This document shows, piece after piece, positions 50,753 through 64,000 of a stretch of DNA of 64,000 nucleotides (within the stretch, counting starts at the first letter, position 1; every line of letters starts with the position of its first letter). The stretch is from NCBI GenBank assembly GCA_000697055.1, contig JNDT01001773.1, positions 30,572 through 94,571 on the forward strand, in the 5' to 3' direction. The position numbers were made by a program, and so were the translations under genes. Under the pieces are notes generated by a model that searched no databases, was not told the DNA's origin, and was given only the letters and a program-made list of their open reading frames with translations. Origin of the DNA: Saksenaea vasiformis B4078 (lineage: Eukaryota > Mucoromycota > Mucoromycetes > Mucorales > Saksenaeaceae).

Positions 50753-51112
50753 ATGATAATAAAAAAAACAATAGACTTCATACAGAGTATAGATTAAGAC
50801 TGCGTTGGGTATCACTACCTTTGGGGAGAACTTTTCTAAGAAGAAGATTTATGTATTTCGCAATGGGAAACATACTACTTATGTGTGAAAGTGGGTCGAT
50901 ATAGTTTAACTGCTTACAACTTTGGAAATGAGCTCGATTGCGTAAAAAAGACTGCACAGATTTGGGTATGTGTGCAACCTGCGGACACAAAGAGAGTCTG
51001 TCAGTCGAGGGCTCCGTGACCATGTCTGTAGCCCTGAAATCCCCGATTGTTAGACCATTTACGGAAATCAGACCCAGTCCTTTACCTGTCATACAAAGTG
51101 ACGAGCAGTTCC
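50753..51112 (-). other. Region immediately downstream of Fz1 (candidate guide-RNA region)
   Basis: Lies 3' of the Fz1 stop on its strand. It holds an unrecognised 104-codon frame (ATG 51092, stop near 50778) with little protein character. In characterised Fanzor/TnpB loci the guide RNA comes from the sequence at or just beyond the 3' end of the nuclease gene, so this is where an omega-RNA would be expected. No conserved structure could be proven by eye. Confidence 0.25.
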
Positions 51113-54100
51113 TTACTGCCTAACTGTCCTGGACAGTGCTGCCGGGCGAGATGCTAATTGACATCCTGATTCGATGTAACGAACAAATATATCACGAATA
51201 TTTCGGCCGGCATTAACATGTCTGTTCCAAAACTAATCAAATAGTTAAGTATCAACGTGTCAACCCAAGCAGTACGGCTTACTAGAGATGTTCTGATTCC
51301 TCGTCTATCATATGCGCACTGAGGGCACAGTCGGATAGGATAGACAATATTTCTGTAATTGTTGTGAGCTATTCCTATGTTAAAGAAAAATGTACATAAG
51401 CCGGACTAAGTCATACCGGGTCGGCGTCTATTGGGGCATTCACTGCTTAGATGCAGAATCTGCTCGTCGTCACCTAAGCAATATTGACGTTTGTGCTTAT
51501 GATGCTGGCGTCTGATATACTTTTTGCTAGAGATTAATGCATATGAGTCAGGTTTCCACTGTATCCATTTGTTTCCCAAACATACCGATGATTACACAGT
51601 TGCATGTTATAGTCACGGAAATCGACTCTGTCGTGATGACATATGCTACATACTTTGCTGGTTTTGTACTCGTCTACGCATATGACTGGACATCGCTGTG
51701 CTAGCACCTTGCGAAAGGTCTACATGGATAGTAAATGTTAATAGGATTCTCACTACCAAGAGAACTTCAACACCCTCACCTTCACCGGTAACGGTGCATA
51801 CATCTTGTAGCCTCCACTATGCAGGTCGGCATCTCCGTATGCCACAAATGCCCGGAGCTGGTCACGTCTACTGTTTTGTGCCTCACGATGTTGACGATGT
51901 TGGCGATACCGCGCTTTTTTGTTCTGTTTTTGCACATTTGCGACCGGAGGCTGATGCAGAGAGATAATTAATGAACGAAGAATAAGCAGGCAAATGCTCA
52001 CCAGGGTTGAATTGGGATAAAATCCCCCGACTTGGTCTGCGATAACGTCCATGGTCACACTTCTGGAAGAGCCCTGCAAGGCACGCCTTTCCCTGTGTCT
52101 GTAATGACGGTTGAACTCATCCGTTCTGGGAAAGTCCATTCAATATGACCACATATTGACAAGAACATTCTGTAGCTACCTCTGTTTTTCGCTGAATTGT
52201 GCCGTGAGAAAGCGCTGGAATTCCGGAACAGGTGAGGCCGTCTTAGGATGTTCCGAAAGACGATCGTAGACTTCCTGCATGTTGGCAATTTCACGATTTT
52301 TCCTTTCTATCTGAAGACTCCAGTTAAATTTGGAGCTGGATCTAAAAAAGCATGCAGTTATTGCACTGACTACATACAGGATCTTGTTCTTACTGATAAT
52401 AACCGTTCGTGACAGAAAATGTATGGCTATTTCTTGCCTCTTCGTCATGAAGATCCTCCGCTGTGTCTACGGCGGTCACAAGGGAACGAATACCTACGAA
52501 ATACATATATAGCCTTTGTTAGATTCTTCATAGCAAGGAGCATACCAGGATCGATTCCCACGATGCGAGTTCTTTCAGGGTCTAAATGGCGTGCGACCGT
52601 TAAGCCCGTGGGCTCCTTCTTCAAATGATAGATGCCACACTGCAAATCAGAGAAATCCCTGTTACGAGGAAGGAACTGAAAGTCTCTCTGGGAGGACGGA
52701 TAAGATGCTGAAATGCAACCTTTCTGTTAGCGTGCTCCACGGTATAACAAAAACTGGACTGACCTTGGTTTGGTTTGCGAGATTTAAATCTGACTGCCAC
52801 CATAACACCATCCGTCTCAAAGCCATAATCAAACTCTACTTCTGGTAGCTCATCGTTGTTTATCCCTTATATGAACAAGTGTAAGGACATTACTTCCATA
52901 CAGTTGAATATGACCAAACCTTGTGCCCGGCGGCGGCGAGGCATGACTCTATCAAGACAAAAAATTGCTTCCCAAAGTTGTTCGCGGTATATCATGTCCT
53001 TGAGCGCATTATTGAAGGTATGAAAGCCTTGCAAAGGACCCTAACGTAAGAGTGTCAATTTTTCTTCGGTCAATTTATGCTTTTTTTTTTACGAGAACAT
53101 ACTGCTAGATTTTCCGGGAGATTGGTGGTAATGTCTTTAAGCGCCCAGTAAAATATTTTACCGGTTACGGGGAAGTAACCTAGTGTAGTATTATTGATTA
53201 GCTCATATTATGGTTCAAGCAAGGTCACTAGGTTTCAGCTTACCTATCTGGTTTTTAGACATTGGAACGAGAGTCCAGCCTTTTCCATTGAGTTCATTTG
53301 TTTGCTTAAGCATCAATGCTGAGAGATGAAGCATACAGGGAAGCAACCGCTGGTTTTCATCATCACTGAGGTCTGCGGCTATATCTACATTGTCAAGGTT
53401 TTCCTGGTAAACATTCTGAAACTCTCTAGGATGCACCCAACGGTAAGTAATCGTGAGGAAGAAACTATGTTAATATCTTTTCTTGTCATACCCATAAAAG
53501 ACTTCAAGGTCGGTGATTGAATCATCATCTAAAGTTGTCCATGCATTACGGTCAAAAAGTTCTTGTGCTGTTATTCCCTGGACACATCTGGATGCTACAA
53601 ATTTGAAGCAAGGCGATATCACGTAAACAATGTAAAGCAAATACATTAAGCAGTGGAGTAATACCTAGGCTTCTCGCATCGTGTCGCTGATTTTGCGGGT
53701 GGTTCGCAAATAGTTCATCAAAAAAGGCGACGAAGGTTCGCTTCATATATATTTGAAGATTCGACGTGATGTGTAGGTATGTGTCTATAAATACGAAAAG
53801 TTTGTGTTTTCTTCTTCTCAAATAGTTCCACTTACTAGCAACTATTTTCCCCGCAAATGACGGGGCCAGCTCTCTTAACATGTATGTCAACGTGGGAAAC
53901 CGGTAGTTTTCTGCAGAAGTTATAAGTGTATTTGGCCTTACAAATTTACATGTATACCTTTTCCCGTCGCTGGGTTCATTCTGCAAGTATGAAAAAAGTT
54001 TTCGAAAGTCTGCCGTAGATCGACACACCAGCGGTAGTTTGACTATTGATCATGGGAGCAGATTTAGTTTATCCTGATAACTTCCTAACATCGCTACGTA

Positions 54101-54517
54101 CAAACGCTACCCGAATGTTTGTGCCAGGATCTCGACTCAGGATCATTTTAAACGCGGCAATAAAAAAGACTTCGTCATGGATAGGAGGAGAGGTCTCGAA
54201 CTGCCCATCGATCCAACGATGGATGTGCAAATTGACAAGCAACATTGCACACTGACAAGCGGTTGCGTACTGTTCTGCCACTGAACGAAAGACGCCCTAT
54301 ATCAGCTTGTACTTAATATATTTGAAAGATTTTATATGAGAATTCCATAATACAGTACCCTGAGCTGCTTGTGGCTTCCCTGCAGAAAATTGCAAAGCTT
54401 CAATTTTCGAACAAATGAGTAGTCGCGACCAGGCAACTGCGCGATGGGGGTGTTCTGGTACCCATACCGTCTCCTGCGGGCCGGGGGCTCTCCAACTTCG
54501 TTGTGTTGTCTATCCAT
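51113..54517 (-). CDS. Fanzor-like TnpB homologue Fz1 (RuvC-III Asp replaced by His)
   Basis: Nineteen exons give 794 residues: 54517-54359, 54296-54111, 54042-53958, 53910-53836, 53784-53665, 53594-53492, 53425-53244, 53179-53103, 53040-52920, 52865-52764, 52707-52546, 52493-52394, 52341-52180, 52125-52002, 51950-51780, 51719-51586, 51526-51417, 51374-51283, 51232-51113. Landmarks in order: Arg-rich N terminus; NTYLHITSNLQIYMKR; FDYGFETDG; GIYHLKKEPTGL; RIVGIDPGIRSL (RuvC-I Asp); YRHRERR; FVAYGDADL; VDEYKTSKVCSIC (RuvC-II Glu and first CxxC); a second CxxC (CPQC); FWNRHVNAGRN, where RuvC-III should read RD. TnpB/Fanzor proteins are RNA-guided DNA nucleases. Without the third carboxylate, cleavage is probably lost although DNA or RNA binding might remain. 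An intron splits the DPG codon of RuvC-I. Confidence 0.83.
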
Positions 54518-55571
54518 GTTTTTGGGAATAAAAAGGAAGGGAGATTTGTTGTCAAATAGTTAGATGGAATATATGTGAACTCGTAGGACCGTTGTTTCGT
54601 TATCCATGATGGGACGCTGCTAATAGGCTAACAGTTTTTGCACCTTGGTGTCTGCTGAGCCTTTCAGCAAGGAGAATTGCTACGAACACTCAGATTCTGC
54701 CTCTTAGTGACACTCATGTAACATAATTTAGAGAACTGTTAAATAGGTAGCTTCGAATTCTTATGAAATCTGATCGTACGCAAATATCAACGAGTTGTCA
54801 AGCCTCCGTGGATCGACTGCTTAGGCTTTGATAGGTGAAGTGATGATATCTATTTGTAGGCGCTCGATGAGGGTTTAATTTACGGGCATTCAGCTCATGG
54901 GCGCTCATCGTGTGGACGCTAGCTGCACAAATACCTACGATTTGGTTTTTATTTGAGGATGGTCATACGTGCATTAAAATTCGGTAAGGTGTTTGTCCAG
55001 CCGCCGGCGAAAACACATTACATGAGTGTCCCTAAGAGGTAGATCCTGAGTGTCCGTAGCAATTCCCTTCAGCAAGGTATGGCCAGTGCAAACAGACAGT
55101 TAACTTTGTAAATGATGACGTACTGACAGACAGCTACATTCAAATATACATACAAGTAACTATTATGATAAGCACAAGGGCAATCTGTCCAGAATTCTGC
55201 GATGGTGACCGAGAAATATTTTTCTACAACTTTCATATTGGTATCAATGGAAAATGATAAGAAGTGTCATTCTCTTTGTCATTGGGCCCTCTGGCCAGGG
55301 ACCCGTCATCCAGGCCATAAGGCCTTTTTTCGTTTTGAATATTTCGAATAGATAGGCTCAGGATCCAGAAGGCAGATTAGGCATGGGCAATACAGCAACG
55401 TTAGATCAAGAGAATACTGATTATGCGTTTTTAAAAAACGCAATTGGCTTGTGCAACTCATATGTCAGCCTACCATCCATTTTACTGTCTCTAAAAATAT
55501 TTAACAGTAAAGAAACAAAGATTAGGAACCTCTATGCCTGTTAGATTCTTGTATACCATTAACGGTTGTCG
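54518..55571. other. Intergenic between Fz1 and small acidic ORF
   Basis: Contains the Fz1 promoter (A/T-rich just above 54517), the 417-bp inverted-repeat element and about 500 bp with no recognisable feature except an imperfect GC palindrome near 55285-55305. Confidence 0.4.
54661..55077. mobile_element. Non-autonomous TIR element (MITE-like)
   Basis: The arm at 54661-54720 matches the reverse complement of 55018-55077 nearly perfectly over ~50 of 60 bp. The core blocks GAATTGCTACG, ACACTCA, CCTCTTAG and GACACTCATGTAA are shared. The ~300-bp interior has no reading frame. It lies about 145 bp upstream of the Fz1 start. It resembles a MITE of a cut-and-paste DNA transposon; the outer ends and target-site duplication are not obvious. 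Confidence 0.55.
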
Positions 55572-55808
55572 TTACGCCACTGGTGTGGTAGATTTCCTCA
55601 TTTCGCCACCCATTTTTTGCTGCAATTGCTGAAAATTGGCCTCAAAAAGATTTGCTACTACCTCGTCTTCTTCGAAAACCTCCTCTGAAACGTTGGCATC
55701 AACGGAAGCGAATACTTCTTCATGATGCATGTGGTCGTTGTGTTGCTGTTGCGGAGTGTTCATAGCTGACAGCAAGAAGCAAGCTTCCTTTTGGAGCTCC
55801 GTCGCCAT
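55572..55808 (-). CDS. Small acidic hypothetical protein
   Basis: Single exon, 78 residues, ATG 55808. Gln/His-rich near residues 18-29 and acidic in the middle (EEVFASVDANVSEEVFEEDE), followed by a helix NLFEANFQQLQQKMGGEM. No family recognised. It is divergent from sphingosine-1-phosphate lyase, and three 41-bp direct repeats lie directly upstream of its start. Composition favours a real small protein, but evidence is limited. Confidence 0.4.
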   Translation of the reverse strand: MATELQKEACFLLSAMNTPQQQHNDHMHHEEVFASVDANVSEEVFEEDEVVANLFEANFQQLQQKMGGEMRKSTTPVA

Positions 55809-55813
55809 AGAAG

Positions 55814-55936
55814 TCCGAAGATTAACTGAGCGATTTTATTTGCTGTCTTTAACATCCGAAGATTAAGTTGAGATATTCATTCGCTGATTTTTGATTCCGA
55901 AGATTAACTCGTCATTTTTATTGGCGCAGAATACCA
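55814..55936. repeat. Three 41-bp tandem repeats between divergent genes
   Basis: CCGAAGATTAA recurs at 55815, 55856 and 55897, exactly 41 bp apart, with partial similarity in the rest of each unit (TTTATT-GC blocks). They sit between the small acidic ORF (55808) and sphingosine-1-phosphate lyase (56048), so they may be repeated regulator-binding sites. Confidence 0.55.
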
Positions 55937-56047
55937 CAGACACCGCAGGCGAGCTCAGTCGAGCCGCCCACTCGGAGTTACAATAGGAAGGGTTTATCAG
56001 CTGCCTTTTTGCTCACCCTTTTCATTGTTATCCTTTTTTTTACAGCC

Positions 56048-58064
56048 ATGACAAACATAGTGTCAAAACCCTTATCTTCACTACACCTGTTGCAGTACAT
56101 TCAGGCCTTTATTAATGGCCCTACTGTGACACGTGTCAAAAACGTCGTTTTCATTCTGGTTTTGTATCATTATTGGTGCAAATTCTATTCGCGAATTGTC
56201 GTAGCAGGTCCCGTACGAACAGCAATAGACTTTAAGGATTATATTAGACAGGTAAATGACAGCTTCAATGGTCTGCGATGGAGATTAGCAAGTACTAACA
56301 TTCCTACGATTTAGGTCTTCTTTAAGCAGCTCCGTCGTCTTCCTGCAGTGCAGGCTAAAATCAACGAAGAATTGAATAAAACATTGAAACAGATGGAACA
56401 CTCGATGACTTTAAGAGAAGGCAACGTTGTTCATAATTATCAACTGCCTGCACACGGGCTTAATGACGAACAAATCCTGGAGAACCTTCGAGAGTAATGC
56501 GAAGTTACTTTATTATGCTTGGATTGACCTCTCTTTGCGTTGATTTGCTAGATTTCAAAATATGAAGGCTCAAGATTGGAAAGGAGGCAGAGTATCCGGC
56601 ACAATTTATCACGGAGGAGATGACTTGACCAATCTGCTTGCCGAAGCCTATCGATTATTCGCAGTATCCAACCCTCTTCATCCAGAAGTATTTCCCGGTG
56701 TGCGTCGTATGGAAGCTGAGAGCGTATCCATGGTTCTTAATATGTACAATGCACCTGAGACAGGCTGTGGTGTAATGACTAGCGGTGGTACGGAAAGCAT
56801 TGTGATGGCATGCAAGGCCTATCGTGACATGTACAAAGATTTGAAGGGAATCCATTATCCTGAAATGTAGGGAATTTGCTAATCTTATAGTTCGACATTA
56901 ACGAAAAACCTATCCAGTATCGTACCACAAACGGTACATGCTGCCTTCATGAAAGCAGCGGGCTATTTCAATATCAAGCTGATTGTCGTGCCTGTGGATC
57001 CTATCACGTACAAAGTGGACGTTAGCCGGGTAGCAAAGGCAATTACACGGAACACAGTAATGGTAAGTTTCTCTGTATGCGGGCTTGAGCGAAAAACCTA
57101 ACACACACACTCTATATAGATTGCCGGTTCCGCTGTCAACTTTCCTCACGGTATTGCTGATGATATTGTGGCGCTTGGAAAATTAGCAAAGAAACACAAC
57201 ATTGGCTTGCATGTTGACTGTTGCTTGGGTAGCTTTATTATGCCATTCCTCGAAAAAGCAGGTTTCCCAACTGTACCATTTGACTTCCGTGTGGAAGGAG
57301 TCACCTCAATCTCGTGTGACACGCACAAGGTAAATTTTTATTTTTGGCTTATGAAAATCTCACTTTAATCGGTAGTATGGTTTTGCCGCAAAAGGATCAT
57401 CTATTGTAATGTACCGGGATAAGAAGATTCGCAAATACCAATACTTCCTTTGTGCTGATTGGAGTGGCGGTATTTATGCATCACCGAGCGTAGCAGGATC
57501 AAGGTACAGCTATTAGTTTGTAACACCCTGTAGCTAAGCATAGTATAGGCCAGGTGCATTGATTGCAGGCTGCTGGGCTGCTTTGATGAAGCTTGGTGAG
57601 GATGGCTACCTGGATTCGTGCAAAAAGATCGTTGGTGCCAGACGAACTATCCAAGAAGGGTAAGCGTGGTTCCACGTCGAAACATTGCGTTAATTCTATG
57701 TGTTAGCATTGAATCCATTCCTCAACTGCATATTAAAGGTGATCCCATTGCCAGCGTGGTGGCATTTGGTGCAAATGGGTCGCTGAATATCTACGATGTG
57801 GGAGACAAGATGTCAGACCGTGGATGGAACTTAAGTGCGCTGCAAAACCCGGCTGCTTTGCATATTTCGGTGACGTTACCTTGGGTCCAAAGTGCAGACG
57901 ATTTTGTCCGAGATCTGAAAGAGGTTGTTGCCGGGCTTGTAGCAGATCCTGAAAGCGGTAACGGTAGTACGGCAGCCATTTACGGAACTGCCGCCAGTGT
58001 CCCTGACAAGGCAATCATCGAGGATGTAGCAGCAGGATTTATTGATCTCCTTTATAAAGCATAA
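56048..58064 (+). CDS. dpl1: Sphingosine-1-phosphate lyase
   Basis: PLP-dependent ER membrane enzyme that splits long-chain base phosphates into a fatty aldehyde and phosphoethanolamine, the exit from sphingolipid metabolism. Eight exons (56048-56251, 56315-56493, 56552-56866, 56918-57062, 57120-57329, 57376-57503, 57549-57659, 57707-58064) give 549 residues. An N-terminal membrane helix ([17 protein letters not shown]) is followed by [50 protein letters not shown] and [13 protein letters not shown]. The PLP-lysine motif is [32 protein letters not shown] follows. All catalytic motifs are present. ATG 56048 is the first in frame; the frame extends upstream without an ATG. Confidence 0.95.
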
Positions 58065-58134
58065 AAGGTATAAAACTCTGATTACTCTTAGTTTCAAAAT
58101 CGGGGTTTTTATTTTTATTTCAGCATAATGGAGT

Positions 58135-59321
58135 TTACGAACGGCGATGAACAGTACGAGCATCGGCCTGGTTAGTAGGGAAAACTGCAACAAGATTATA
58201 TGAGAGACGTCCCTTTGTTGGCTATTGCAGACTTACCTAGCATGTCACAGATGTTGACATGGGGTGGTCTTGACGCGATAAAAGTCACCATCTCCGCTGT
58301 GGTGACAAACGTTTTAGATTATTTTTTTGTTCAAGTCATGGCATTCGCTTCTTTACCAATATCCTCTCCTAACAAAGGGTCGAGTCCCTTGTAGACACTA
58401 TCTGCCTTCTGTTTGTCTCCGTGGAATCGGATGGTTGAGAATTCAGTATTGACCATGCCTGGACAGATCTGGCTGACACGGATGGGGGTATCGACCAGTT
58501 CGTAGAGAAGGGCTCTGGTAATTGCTTCAACAGCAAATTTGGATGCTTCAAAAGACGTCAGACGATGAAGTCCTTTATTTTATTGCATGACGTACCGCAA
58601 TAGATGCTTCCACCGGGATAACTTTGTTTGCCTATCCACATTGTCAGTGGTGTCACCTTTTTTTTTGTCTTTTTCCGTTCTCTGTACCTGCAACAGAGCC
58701 AAGGTTAATAATATGACCAGATTGACGCGATCTCATGTGAGGTATAAGTGATTGTGTCAAGAACACGAGTCCCTTGACGTTGGTGTCGAACATCGTGTCG
58801 TATGCTTCTTCCGTCACTTTTTCCAAAGGATCCATGCCGATGACAAGGCCAGCATTGTTGACAAGCACATCCACATCCTTTGTAGGAAGATCGGCAACGA
58901 ATTTATCGATATTCTTTTTTTCTCGAATATCCAATCCCATCGTGTGAATTTGGATGCCCGCATGCTTTTGGGTCAATTCCTGCTTAAGGGATTCCAGTCG
59001 CTCAAGACGGCGAGCGGCGAGAATCTGGGAAAGCCGTCGTGAGAAAACCGTGGCATCCGGCATTTCTCTTTTTCTTTACCAAGTTTGAACCTTCATTGGC
59101 AAACTCACGAGCACAGGCTTCGCCAATACCAGCAGACGCACCAGTGCTTTGGATAGATGTAGAGCGTGTCAAAATAACTGATCTTGCTTGGGTAGGTGAA
59201 CGCATTTTTGAGCTTACATGAGCACATTTTTTCCTTCGAGTCGTTGTGACGCATAGGATCGTCTTGACAATAGGTTGTATGCAGCGCGTGTATTGCGTAA
59301 TAGAAGAGCTGCTCGCAACAT
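58135..59321 (-). CDS. Short-chain dehydrogenase/reductase with mitochondrial presequence (YdfG-like)
   Basis: Seven exons (59321-59218, 59146-59080, 59024-58688, 58631-58596, 58545-58357, 58296-58237, 58184-58135) give 280 residues. The N terminus MLRAALLLRNTRAAYNLL is rich in Arg and lacks acids, as in mitochondrial presequences. The Rossmann fold shows LITGASAGIGEACAREFA (nucleotide site), LAARRLERL (the RR suggests NADP), DVLVNNAGLVIGMDPL, the catalytic Ser in INLGSVAG and YCASK (Tyr-xxx-Lys). The C-terminal DMLVFPTNQADARTVHRRS is typical of the YdfG/YMR226C group, which oxidises L-allo-threonine, serine and 3-hydroxy acids. It is convergent with sphingosine-1-phosphate lyase, with 70 bp between stops. 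Confidence 0.92.
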
Positions 59322-59689
59322 GGAGTGTGGGAAAAGAAAGAAGTTGTTTGCCCTTTCTGGTACAGTTGCGTTTTCTTCCGGCGGATATTCAAGCGGCGCC
59401 GGAATTGCGTGTACCCCACATATGGATGCAAGAGAACCGACACACTGTTATGTCACCACGTTGAACTGCATCTCACTTAATAAATGCCGTGTAGGACTTT
59501 TTTCAAAAAGTTTCTCTATGATTTTGGGAGTGGTTCAGCATAGCTGGTTGTATGCAACCCCTTAACTGATCTGACAACAGACGGTATCGCATACAGAAAT
59601 AAAATTAATCGATATGCACAGACACATTTCGTTTTTGTTGTCACCTTTTGTAAACGCATATCTCTGGTAGAATTTGTGCGATCCGACCG
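59322..59689. other. Intergenic
   Basis: About 370 bp upstream of the dehydrogenase. No TATA box or repeat is evident. Confidence 0.35.
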
Positions 59690-59824
59690 ATGATGAGTGC
59701 TACTTACGCGGTGCCACCTAGAGAGAATAGCAACCCTACTCCTGGGAACATTATTGCCGAGTCTCGCACCCTTTCTGTTAAGGTCACGTACTGGTACAAT
59801 CAGGCAAGTCATATACTAATATAA
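59690..59824 (+). CDS. Orphan first exon or tiny ORF next to Fz2
   Basis: ATG 59690 opens a 44-codon frame, MMSATYAVPPRENSNPTPGN then IIAESRTLSVKVTYWYNQ, which reads like the N terminus of a real protein. After YNQ comes GCAAGT, usable as a GC donor; no continuation is seen before the Fz2 gene 236 bp away. It could be a gene truncated by insertion of Fz2, an exon whose partners I missed, or chance. No family recognised. Confidence 0.3.
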   Translation: MMSATYAVPPRENSNPTPGNIIAESRTLSVKVTYWYNQASHILI

Positions 59825-60059
59825 TGCGGGCAATCTGGGGTTTCTTTAGTTGACTTTTGTAACCTAACTATCTCTAATCTGTAAAATCTACTGGTTTCTC
59901 AATGCTTCATGGAAAACTCCACTTTCTTCATTGTTTTCATCATACACCTTATTTGGAAGGGCCCTACGTCACAAGGAAAATAAGAATGTCGTCACAAACA
60001 TTTGAAATGGTACTTACGAAGCTCTCCCAGTGCCTAACGAGAGGCTAGTTGGCCGTTCC
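59825..60059 (-). other. Region immediately downstream of Fz2
   Basis: On the Fz2 strand this follows the stop. It begins GGAACGGCC and contains a possible stem CTCTC...GAGAG (60022-60043). Both Fz genes end in TAAGGAAC, but similarity fades at once. This is the expected place for an omega-RNA 3' end if one existed. Confidence 0.25.
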
Positions 60060-63000
60060 TTACGGCCTAGCATCACCAAGGGGTGCAGGTTCTTGTTGTT
60101 GTTGCTGTTGTGGACGACGTAATGCAGCGGGCCTTGTCTGCAATTGCATGTCACCTTCCATGTATGCGACCAGAATCCGCCGCCTGTTTCTGCCCGCATT
60201 GATATCGCGATTCCAAAACTAAAGAAAACCTTAGCTTCATACTTTCACACAGGAATTACATAACAGTGGCCTTTGTTCTCCATGTTCCATGCCAGCGCCT
60301 CCCAACTGATGTTGGTTGCACAATTTAATCGGATAGACCTGGCAGCGGAAATCGTTCAAAGCTATCATGAATGCTGTTAATGAAACTTGCTTTCGGTATG
60401 ATCTGATCCTCACGTAATGGTTGCAACTCAGGGCATTGCGAAGTCCTTTGCAATATGACATTTTCTTCATTCAAACAGTATCTTTTGCGACGATCGTCGC
60501 CCGGACGACGGAGCAACTTCGTTCTAAGGATACACAATGTTAATTGGTAGGAGCTTGCAAAAACCAGTGACTTACTTGTGCTGGCACCGTGAAGTGGGCG
60601 TCACAAACTGCTGCGTGTCATTGTCACAGCTGGAGCACACTTTTGAAGTGTTATATTCGTCTATTAGTATAACAAGGGACTTCTGCGCGAGTAATTTCCG
60701 GAATTGCTAGCATGTGTTTTTAAGTTAGCATTATCCGAATGGAAAGTATGTAACATATACCTTCACTGGTAACGGACCGAGACCCCTCATTGTAGGCTTC
60801 AAATCAGCATCACCGTATGCAACAATGGTCGGCTGCTGCTGTTGTTGGTGAATATTTTCTCTTAACCGCCGCCGCCGGCGCTTCCTTTTCGATCTTGTAG
60901 ATTTATAATGCGGTTGGATCAAATCCTATCCGAAACATAGACATTAGATCTATAATTAGAGATGTTGTCACTTACGTCTCGGGGCGAACCCGTAGCTACC
61001 CTGTCAGCCAGTACGTTTAACGTACTACGTCGTGCAGAGTACAAGAGCATCCGATTTTCACGATGGCGATAAGGACAATTAAAGTCGTGCATGCTAGTGA
61101 CCACTTTAGTATCGTTGAATATTCTCAAATAAATGTTATACTTACGGTCGATGTATATTACTGATTGTTTGTATGTATCTTTTGAACTCCATTGTGGTTG
61201 CGACTGTAGGCGGTTCTCCGCAATTTCGTCGTAATATTGTTGCATGGATGCATCCCGACGTGATTTTAGTTCCGTTTGCTTGGCCCACGAGAACATGGAT
61301 CGGAGTCTTAAAGCCTGTTAACGATCGTCGATCATCATATGGCAAAGTGGACTTACTGGTATTCATTGTTGCTAATTGTGGCTGTGTGAGCATTGCGCAG
61401 CTCTCGAGTTACAAGTTGCTCGTTGGTGTCCACCGCGCTGAACAACGATCGTATGCCCGGGTCAAGTCCCACGATCCTTGATCCCGCGAGACGCTCCTGT
61501 GCCAGACCTGTCGGTTCCTTGTTAAGGTGATAAATACCCTTCGTCCATGAGCCAAGGTCCATGTTCCGGGGTAGGAGCCGAAAATCCCTTTGGGAGGAGG
61601 GAAAACGTTCTTAACAAAGTATGAGGACAGGAAGAAGCATGCCATTTTCCTCCTACCGTGTTTGCGACACTCGAATACCACAGATGCGCCTACACCATCC
61701 GTTTCAAAATCGTAAGCAAATTCAAGAGCAGTACGTTCAGCATTAACGACAGCTAGAATATAAATTAATTAGCAGCAGTTCGGAAGCACAGCAACCTACG
61801 TTCATTATTCCACCGCCAGCGATTTTTCTGACACTTGTTGATGTTAAATAGTTGTTCCCAAAAATTTTCTCGCCAGACGGGATCTCGACAAAGAGCGTCA
61901 AATTCTTTGAGACTGCAATACGGTAGTTGTCTCCGTCTTGGATTCTCACGCTAGAATCAGAGCATTTAATGTACATGACGACTTAAAACCAGGATACGCT
62001 CACTTACCACAAACAGTGGAGGAACAGCCTCGTTTGCAAGAAAGGCATCACGTAAGATTTTCCATAGACCTCTGCCCGTAATCGGAAAGTAACCGACTTG
62101 ATGTGTTGCAATAGGCAGAAGCGACCAACGGCTACCGTCATATTGAACTGTGTACGGATACAACTCGTACATGTATTTCACAATCCTTGGAAAAAGTGGA
62201 TGGGTTCCTTCATCCTCTGAATCAACCTCGTCAATCAGGATATCACCGAGGTGAGTCTGGTACAGATTGTATTGGGTCCTGTGACAGTCGATATGATTAA
62301 CAATGAAATTAATCACAAGGTATTTACTCAAAAAAAGTCAGCAGTTCGCCTCTGAAAGGCATATCTTGCCAGTGATGGTCCCCTAGTGGTTCATGATTTG
62401 TGATACGAGTAACGGCGAATCGAGCTAGAAGAACCATTGTTAGTGAGATTTATTCGAACTTGTTTCGTACCATGAGCCGCGGGTCCTCCTCCAGGTAAGA
62501 AGCCTTGATGGCGCTCTTTCAAAGCGCGAAAATAGGCCAACCATACATATCGCAAATATGTCGAGACATTATTCACGAGGTGCCTGCGAACATCTATGGG
62601 CATGTTAGATCTATAATCATTGGAAGACTATCTCATACTTTGCATTGCGTTGATTGCAAATGGATCAGGCATCTCGATGAAAAATCCCTCAATCTTTTCG
62701 ATAGTGTACAGATCTATTATACCGAGATTAGTGTCATGCATTTTCAATCGATCAATGCTAACTTACATCCACCATGTTCGTCCTTCCGCAACGGCTCGAA
62801 GTGATCAATCGCCGTGGTCCAAAGGCTTCGTTCCCATGATGGCTACAAAATAAAGGCATGGATACTTGACCACCTCCCTGCATGTACACACTTACGGTTT
62901 GGGTGGTGTTGATGTGTAAGGGCCTGTACTGAACAAATCTGAATGCCGCTCTCCAAAATTCTCAAGTAGCAATTGGTGGAAATGTGAAGTTTCCGTGGTC

Positions 63001-63304
63001 GTGTCCCTCTTCCGCCCAGCGACGGACGTGTAGGTTTGCCAGGTTCAAAGCGTCACGTCGAAGGACGTGATATTGCTCGGCGATATGCCGGAAACGTTGC
63101 TACATGAAATATATGATTAAACAATGGATGTATCGTAGTTTGACTCACCCTTAGATGGCCAAACTGTGGCCTGAGAAAATTGGATACTTTTATTTTTCTT
63201 GTAACCCGTTGGAAGCATCCTCGATCCCGTGGCAAAATCGAGTGCCTGTAGCGTTGCCTCTGCCGTTGTGCGGGTGGGCCTACTCCTTCTTCTTCTTCCT
63301 CCAT
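60060..63304 (-). pseudogene. Fanzor-like TnpB homologue Fz2 with in-frame stop
   Basis: Seventeen exon segments keep one frame over 825 codons: 63304-63149, 63099-62896, 62842-62767, 62713-62639, 62593-62471, 62424-62328, 62278-62008, 61950-61800, 61752-61657, 61609-61357, 61306-61146, 61103-60976, 60925-60761, 60706-60576, 60523-60414, 60361-60243, 60218-60060. Landmarks: NNVSTYLRYVWLAYFRALKE; RWSLLPIATHQVGYFP; FAYDFETDG; GIYHLNKEPTGL; RIVGLDPGIRSL (RuvC-I); YRHREN; IVAYGDADL; IDEYNTSKVCSSC (RuvC-II); LLCNSC; FWNRDINAGRN (RuvC-III). All three acidic residues remain. Codon 98 (62964-62962) is TGA where Fz1 encodes protein, so the copy is probably dead unless translation starts or splices differently. 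An in-frame ATG at 63367 is a possible earlier start. The intron at 60242-60219 is only 24 nt. Confidence 0.8.
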
Positions 63305-63367
63305 AAAAATAAGTAAAAAGCGGATAGGAGGGTAGAGAAGTAAAAAGCTGTTTTGGAATGTGGTCAT

Positions 63368-64000
63368 TATGTGTTTTCATTGCTGTCATTTAAAATTAAT
63401 CATGAGGTTTCTTTATTCTTCTACAATGCTCAATATCAGGTCATGATCCTGTTTCGCAGATAAACTAGCCACATGTGCGCAACTTGTTCTTTGTTTTACT
63501 GCCGCATGAAGAGGCAGCATATGCAGGATCAAGGAGGTGGACATAACCAGCACGGACATAGTTCATTCAAATGGCAGCAAGGACATTGGATGCGAGCTCC
63601 CTGAGAGTTACTTGCTTTGAAAACGCACGAGATAATGTTCAGACCATACACGAACAACAGTGTATCCCTCCTTTTCTTTCATTGTGAGTGTCTAGACTTT
63701 TTGCAGGTGCTGCTTTTGACGCACTCTTATGTCGCTCACTTTATTTGGGATTCAAAATAAGATAGCTTTGTTGCGCAACTACTTAGAAAATACCTAGTCA
63801 CTCAAAACGTGTATCAGTCCTCCATATTTTGAAGAATAACTCACGAAAAAAGGCTGCAAAAAAGAACCAAAACTCATTTATGGATGAAGGATCAGTAGGA
63901 TTGATAGATAAAGAAACAAGCAAGCAACACAGTCTGTGCTCAAACTAATCCCGCGGTAGAAATCAGAATCATATTTACGGCAGTTACCAATTATTGGATG
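63368..64000. other. Right edge, no supported gene
   Basis: About 630 bp upstream of Fz2 up to the window edge. AT-rich, with no reading frame, repeat or RNA gene that I can support. Confidence 0.45.

Follow-up and report, generated by a model that had tools for sequence, protein, structure and literature searches.

How do Fanzor genes serve the mobile elements that carry them? The role of these eukaryotic relatives of TnpB for their carrier elements has been stated as an open question (PMC10432273), and Fanzor genes on elements of Mucorales have been known since 2013, one of them with a patterned target duplication (PMC3627910). The question is raised again by a 64,000-nucleotide stretch of the genome of the mucoralean fungus Saksenaea vasiformis B4078 (contig JNDT01001773.1, positions 30,572 to 94,571), which we call the window. 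On its minus strand lie two genes, gene B (51113..54517) and gene A (60060..63304), which an original prediction, made from the sequence alone, had placed 5.5 kb apart, in agreement with the measured gap. We consider it likely that both are divergent, intron-rich Fanzor1-type genes, that each resides in a DNA element belonging to a separate multi-copy family, and that the B family moves by the mechanism proposed below. What is new is the insertion rule of the B family, whose elements nearly always insert in one orientation and at a fixed distance from a C[C/A]G motif.

To ask whether the genes encode Fanzors, we compared their products with the published fingerprint of the group, which consists of DPG at RuvC-I and a glutamate six residues before the first zinc-binding cysteine (PMC10711439). 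Both features are present in both proteins. In B, the RuvC-I block RIVGIDPG (Asp 456) is encoded by exon 11 (52546..52707, minus strand), and exon 16 (51586..51719, minus strand) encodes DEYKTSKVCSIC, with the relocated catalytic Glu 660 six residues ahead of the first zinc cysteine (667). The corresponding residues of A are Glu667 and Cys674. The zinc ribbon of B consists of CxxC pairs at 667/670 and 741/744, about 70 residues apart, while A has the first CxxC pair and a second pair of the form C-x-x-H. A RuvC-III block follows in each protein (FWNRHVNAGRN in exon 19 of B, 51113..51232, minus strand; NRD in A). The ordered blocks that the original prediction had read on both minus-strand loci were found where it had placed them.

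Profile searches pointed in the same direction. The zinc-ribbon family PF07282 matched exon 16 of B with 25.5 bits (E = 1.5e-5), A with 24.9 bits (E = 2.2e-5), and seven unaltered sister exons with 22.0 to 25.6 bits (E = 1.4e-5 to 1.9e-4). When a C-terminal profile of A and B was aligned by hhalign with four canonical Fanzor pieces from the same genome, the match reached 93.4% (E = 2.5e-7) over 29 columns in the region of the second zinc pair and RuvC-III, compared with 0.7% for a reversed-sequence control. Several observations weigh against this assignment. All genuine sequences (18.9 to 25.6 bits) fall below the curated PF07282 cutoff of 26.3 bits, which is a threshold of convenience and no defining trait; the full-length B protein reached only E = 0.0017; a sequence search of the PDB and a search of NCBIfam returned no relative or match; and an AlphaFold model made for a database relative had a predicted local distance difference test score (pLDDT) of 31.7, uninformative for the fold. 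The profile search proposed with the original prediction gave significant exon E values and scores just below the curated cutoff. Taken with the fingerprint and the hhalign match, the Fanzor-type, intron-rich, fungal character that the prediction had assigned to the genes was upheld. We read A and B as divergent Fanzor1-type members of the TnpB family and presumably RNA-guided DNA nucleases, with Fanzor1 preferred over Fanzor2 as a provisional label on the basis of length and Mucorales precedents, not of a tree.

The two genes are related, as predicted, and their proteins align end to end far above chance (34.8% identity, E = 9e-138 by BLAST). Explicit GT-AG splicing after a three-frame reading gave gene B 19 exons and 794 amino acids without a stop, exactly the predicted length. 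Its exons 1 to 10 occupy 54517-54359, 54296-54111, 54042-53958, 53910-53836, 53784-53665, 53594-53492, 53425-53244, 53179-53103, 53040-52920, and 52865-52764, and exons 11 to 19 occupy 52707-52546, 52493-52394, 52341-52180, 52125-52002, 51950-51780, 51719-51586, 51526-51417, 51374-51283, and 51232-51113. Gene A, modeled from GT-AG splicing together with sister copies, has 17 exons, of which 1 to 9 lie at 63304-63149, 63099-62896, 62842-62767, 62713-62639, 62593-62471, 62424-62328, 62278-62008, 61950-61800, and 61752-61657, and 10 to 17 at 61609-61357, 61306-61142, 61093-60976, 60925-60761, 60706-60576, 60523-60414, 60361-60264, and 60218-60060. The predicted length of about 824 codons differs from that of A, which is 815 codons with one in-frame TGA. 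Of the 16 introns of A, 15 match introns of B in phase and to within two alignment columns, against a mean of 0.6 and a maximum of 5 under random placement (n = 5,000). The intron-rich layout is therefore older than the split of the two families. Since about 15 introns have been carried from before that split, the element moves as DNA and needs host splicing; the two proteins are now 38% identical over 765 aligned positions.

The original prediction had explained the pair by duplication or by two insertions of one element family, and this part did not stand. A local duplication was rejected because each gene has its close sister on another contig (C656 for B, 98.6%; C272 for A, about 98%). A and B are single copies of two distinct multi-copy families of one lineage, and the ends of the two elements differ.

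Sister copies also revealed how the B gene has evolved. Four full copies (the window copy, C656, C665, and C633) keep all 18 introns and have no stop; three splice sites have changed, one in C656 and two in C665. Among these four copies, from which all rates were taken, the ratio of nonsynonymous to synonymous substitution rates (dN/dS) was 0.16 to 0.22 in five of six pairs, with dS of 0.16 to 0.30 and introns 9 to 15% divergent. These ratios, together with the conservation of introns, support the exon model and indicate long-term selection on the B protein. Counting against this is the closest pair, the window copy and C656, with a dN/dS of 1.15 (29 nonsynonymous and 7 synonymous changes), which indicates relaxed constraint in the newest copies. 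Overall, the B gene is under purifying selection and spreads as DNA.

We delimited the element that carries gene B at 51009..55954 (minus strand, 4,946 bp), with the right end at 51009 and the left end at 55954. Its ends lie at the same places in three sister copies, one of which lacks a nested miniature inverted-repeat transposable element (MITE) present in the window copy, and the left end is fixed only to 1 to 3 bases because the number of G residues at the left junction varies. The terminal inverted repeats are short, imperfect, and GGCTC-like at each end; BLAST found no long repeat. An 8-bp target duplication, TCGACTGA, flanks the window copy on the left (55955..55962) and on the right (51001..51008), as read on the minus strand. 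Target duplications of 8 bp are a trait of cut-and-paste DNA transposons of the hAT or P type. Duplications of 7 to 8 bp were readable in 7 of the 11 copies with both flanks (C363, which is the window copy, C626, C656, C665, C643a, C478, and C5). The other four (C633, C458, C585, and C643b) had none that could be read, which counts against our overall reading. Pieces of the flanks of these 11 copies gave 22 genome matches, all of them the flanks themselves, so the sites are single-copy, and the same search found no empty insertion site in the genome.

The B family has at least 36 right ends in this genome and at least 30 left ends, each counted with its flanking sequence. For the left ends, 31 passed a criterion that allowed three substitutions and C643b was dropped for its degenerate end; the left regions of C536, C436, C623, C8, C577, C666, and C401 failed the criterion and were not counted. 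For the right ends, 39 passed; in C596, C300, and C355, hardly anything beyond the terminal 16 to 20 bases matched, and these three were excluded. The alignment that we call A2 comprised 27 of 34 distinct sequences, without C596, C300, C355, C190, C89, C280, and C666b.

The left flanks share a pattern. In the window copy, the CCG of the target motif lies at 55973..55975 (minus strand), 10 bp before the duplication. In 17 of the 30 distinct left flanks, this trinucleotide occupies precisely positions -21 to -19 (binomial P = 1.4e-26 at that offset, given the base composition of the genome, or about 6e-25 after correction for 43 offsets; the value assumes independent sites, and flanks were shown to be single-copy for 11 copies and are dissimilar by eye for the rest). 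Allowing a start at -24 to -21 raises the count to 24 of 30, and C[C/A]G starting at -24 to -20 accounts for 29, the exception being C179. In the information profile of the left flanks, the motif has a weak A/T-rich extension to TTnAAnCTCCGC, and a C directly precedes the duplication in 25 of 30. On the right, every position carries 0.3 bits or less (39 flanks), and at no offset is CGG present in more than 2 of 36 flanks. All seven copies with a readable duplication share the spacing C[C/A]G-N10-duplication, and where the motif lies 1 to 3 bases further out, either the junction contains additional G residues or no duplication can be read. Because the motif is one-sided and its spacing constant in copies with a readable duplication, B insertion is oriented and occurs at a fixed distance. 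Two candidate explanations of the motif were tried and rejected. The first was a constant guide for the motif within the element, which contains a single ACTCCG and gave no match to longer motifs within the allowed mismatches. The B-box of tRNA genes, read into TTnAAnCTCC, would be expected to have a G before the matched stretch; by eye, the preceding bases are A or T.

Which molecule reads the motif? The best reading, in our view the simplest account, is that a transposase supplied in trans has an asymmetric target preference and that the Fanzor acts afterwards, restoring or spreading the element. Specifically, such a transposase would move the B element with a preference for C[C/A]G located 10 bp ahead of the cut. 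The Fanzor protein would then be loaded with an omega-RNA made at the right end, with the flanking DNA as its guide, and may cut the emptied site or the allelic one. Repair of the cut would return a copy of the element to the site, a role that has been proposed for TnpB. Fanzors described so far have such a right-end RNA, take the guide from flanking DNA, and require a 5' target-adjacent motif (TAM) (PMC10432273). In other Fanzor1 elements, the duplication is fixed and becomes part of the RNA scaffold (PMC10711439); in family B the duplication is free sequence and would therefore belong to the guide. By analogy, the omega-RNA scaffold would be expected in the 104 bp between the stop codon and the right end (51009..51112, minus strand).

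A number of results weigh against this scheme. No transposase turned up in B copies, the open frames of the window B element included, though no search by transposase family was made. In the 104-bp stretch, Rfam gave no match, the fold energy of the last 100 bp was not significant (z = -0.01), and no covariation was detected in the 3' region. An apparent covariation there vanished once unalignable divergent copies were excluded. One 100-bp segment just upstream, over the gene end, folds better than its shuffled versions (z = -2.9, 1 of 15 segments). C383 and C89 were read for an autonomous partner with B ends, and none was found.

Alternatively, the Fanzor itself could choose the site or help to choose it. 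Its ribonucleoprotein would read C[C/A]G as a TAM-like signal and make or direct a staggered cut 10 and 17 to 18 bases downstream, which would produce a 7- to 8-bp duplication in a fixed orientation. A one-sided motif at a base-exact distance would fit a nuclease that needs a 5' signal, and the Fanzor, which is under selection, is the only large gene seen on the B element. Moreover, SpuFz1 cuts the two strands 16 to 17 and 20 to 21 bases past its TAM, leaving 5' overhangs, and the TAM of NlovFz2 is CCG (PMC10432273). However, the bases past the motif vary from site to site and have no matching constant guide in the element, and a guide from the right flank would begin at the duplication, 10 bases from the motif. 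In addition, first-strand cuts of known Fanzors lie more than 10 bases from the TAM (PMC10432273). We therefore regard site choice by the Fanzor as unlikely. If it were true, the B family would provide a counterpart, in a eukaryote, to TAM-linked transposition with target selection.

It is similarly improbable that no protein of the element reads the motif and that a host feature, for example a DNA-binding protein recognizing TTnAAnCTCCGC, tethers the transposition complex. The weaker A/T-rich extension of the motif would suit such a protein, as would the flanks of the 11 tested copies, which are otherwise unrelated and single-copy. Nevertheless, the spacing to the duplication is identical in seven of seven copies, which is tighter than tethering predicts. 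The B family, with its selected nuclease gene, delimited ends, and a one-sided rule that is base-exact in copies with a readable duplication, offers a handle on what Fanzors do for elements. It allows one to ask whether the motif is read by the transposase or by the Fanzor, and whether it is also the TAM.

The two copies in the window are probably no longer active, as judged from their coding sequences. At the catalytic position of RuvC-III, residue 760 of the window B protein is His (NRH), while 26 of the 27 distinct B copies that have this exon carry Asp (residues were counted with one row per contig). A-type copies have Asp in five of six, the exception being His in C445, and the two other acidic positions are retained in most copies read. 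Gene A has two lesions. Its exon 2 (62896..63099, minus strand) contains the in-frame TGA at codon 98, which is common to the window copy and C272 and missing from the other copies that have this stretch (C298, C538, C645, C606, and C445). In addition, the donor of the last intron (60219..60263, minus strand) is disrupted in the window copy and intact in C272, C177, and C606. A model of 820 codons with a 30-bp last intron was rejected as implausible; in the same three copies, the family donor lies slightly upstream. Thus A has probably been inactivated by its stop and splice defect, and B by His at the catalytic position.

The His residues raise the question of whether these proteins have been repurposed, for example, for RNA-guided binding without cutting. 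Consistent with such a change are the substitutions in window B and in C445, as well as the wide separation of the zinc pairs in B-type proteins compared with the 12 to 18 residues of the published TnpB pattern (PMC10711439). Against it stands the Asp retained in nearly all B and A-type copies, along with the other two acidic positions in most copies read. Because His is confined to single B and A-type copies and Asp is found elsewhere, the loss appears copy-specific and decay-like, and we consider repurposing very improbable.

How do these elements compare with known systems? Like SpuFz1 of Spizellomyces punctatus and other Fanzors, family B combines a TnpB-family protein with a multi-copy fungal DNA element bearing end repeats, selected high-identity copies, and an expected right-end RNA (PMC10432273). 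SpuFz1 differs in that its gene is a single open frame, its 2.1-kb locus is bounded by inverted repeats of 30 nt, and its motif is next to the element (PMC10432273); family B has 18 introns, spans 4.9 kb with short imperfect ends, and has its motif about 20 bp off. Closer precedents are the Fanzor1 genes on the Mucorales elements ROr-4, PBl-3, MCi-4, MCi-2, and MCi-5, described as often lacking a recognizable transposase, as here (PMC3627910). MCi-2 also has a patterned target, with duplications ATAATTNNNN(N) (PMC3627910). However, the duplications of those elements measure 9 bp (MuDR type), 11 to 12 bp, or 6 bp (PMC3627910), whereas those of family B are 7 to 8 bp long and free in sequence, and the motif lies 10 bp beyond them. 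PpFz1 of Parasitella parasitica is another Mucorales Fanzor1, with an insertion in its RuvC part (PMC11423790). TnpB proteins of IS605/IS607 and pro-Fanzors have DPG, the relocated Glu, a zinc ribbon, and NRD-x-NA-x-RN, as here apart from the C-x-x-H pair of A and the His of window B, but are prokaryotic and shorter, with zinc pairs closer together (PMC10711439).

In its oriented, fixed-distance insertion, family B resembles Tn7 and CRISPR-associated transposons; its duplications are 7 to 8 bp and theirs 5 bp. Those prokaryotic elements have dedicated target selectors and insert in a single orientation, a set distance away from a recognized site. Introns in Fanzors are reportedly mentioned in the survey of Jiang et al. 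(2023). In the open-access literature searched, we found no title or abstract opening on this Fanzor lineage or on such a target rule. Among 5.8 billion proteins, three relatives were found, all hypothetical proteins of Rhizomucor pusillus and Circinella minor, in a search that relies on shared five-residue words and that more distant relatives can escape. Perhaps gene callers overlook such genes. Within the 38.7-Mb genome (666 contigs), at least 137 PF07282 matches were listed, with 150 of 388 candidates scored, and several Fanzor families coexist, including some with canonical Fanzor blocks.

Several further copies of the B family deviate from the window element. A 2-kb B-type copy on contig C5 (about 59262-61261) retains both ends, shows a 7-bp duplication at the C[C/A]G-N10 spacing, and is apparently an internally deleted derivative. 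On C596, C300, and C355, the terminal 16 to 20 bases of the B right end lie beside unrelated sequence and perhaps belong to other elements that use this end. On C383, unrelated open frames follow a B-type left end that has the target motif, and no right end was seen over the next 7.8 kb. C280, C666, and C89 form a divergent subfamily with the same terminal bases and a 3' noncoding part that could not be aligned.

The 5' part of the window B element contains the nested MITE (54674..55065, strand not assigned), which is 392 bp long, has 48-bp inverted repeats (90%), and is flanked, by eye, by a duplication of about 9 to 10 bp. Since at least seven further B copies carry it, those probably share one bearer ancestor. 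Further MITE copies were seen elsewhere in the genome, on C628, C576, C603, C320, C400, C391, and C500. An acidic open frame of 78 amino acids (55572..55808, minus strand), close to the element's left end, is retained in many B copies and broken or diverged in some; against Pfam it gave a weak, subthreshold match to PF23191 (E = 0.008).

The A element is visible at 59953..64000 (minus strand), with its right end near 59953-59955; judging from C272, its left end would lie about 1.2 kb past the end of the contig. Across six copies, the left ends of the A family are unlike each other. In the A-type copy on C445, similar sequences of about 15 bases (ACCGATT...CTT) adjoin the element on either side and perhaps represent a long target duplication, and the copy on C538 has AAGGTCATA on both sides.

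Two genes lie between the Fanzors. A pyridoxal phosphate-dependent decarboxylase-like gene (55895-58064, plus strand), which we take to be perhaps a sphingosine-phosphate lyase, has the B insertion beside its 5' portion. The second gene, at 58331-59388 (minus strand), encodes a short-chain dehydrogenase. In keeping with a genome from Mucorales, a neighboring gene for mitochondrial ribosomal protein L21 encodes a product with 91% identity to that of Apophysomyces sp. and 84% to that of Rhizomucor pusillus.

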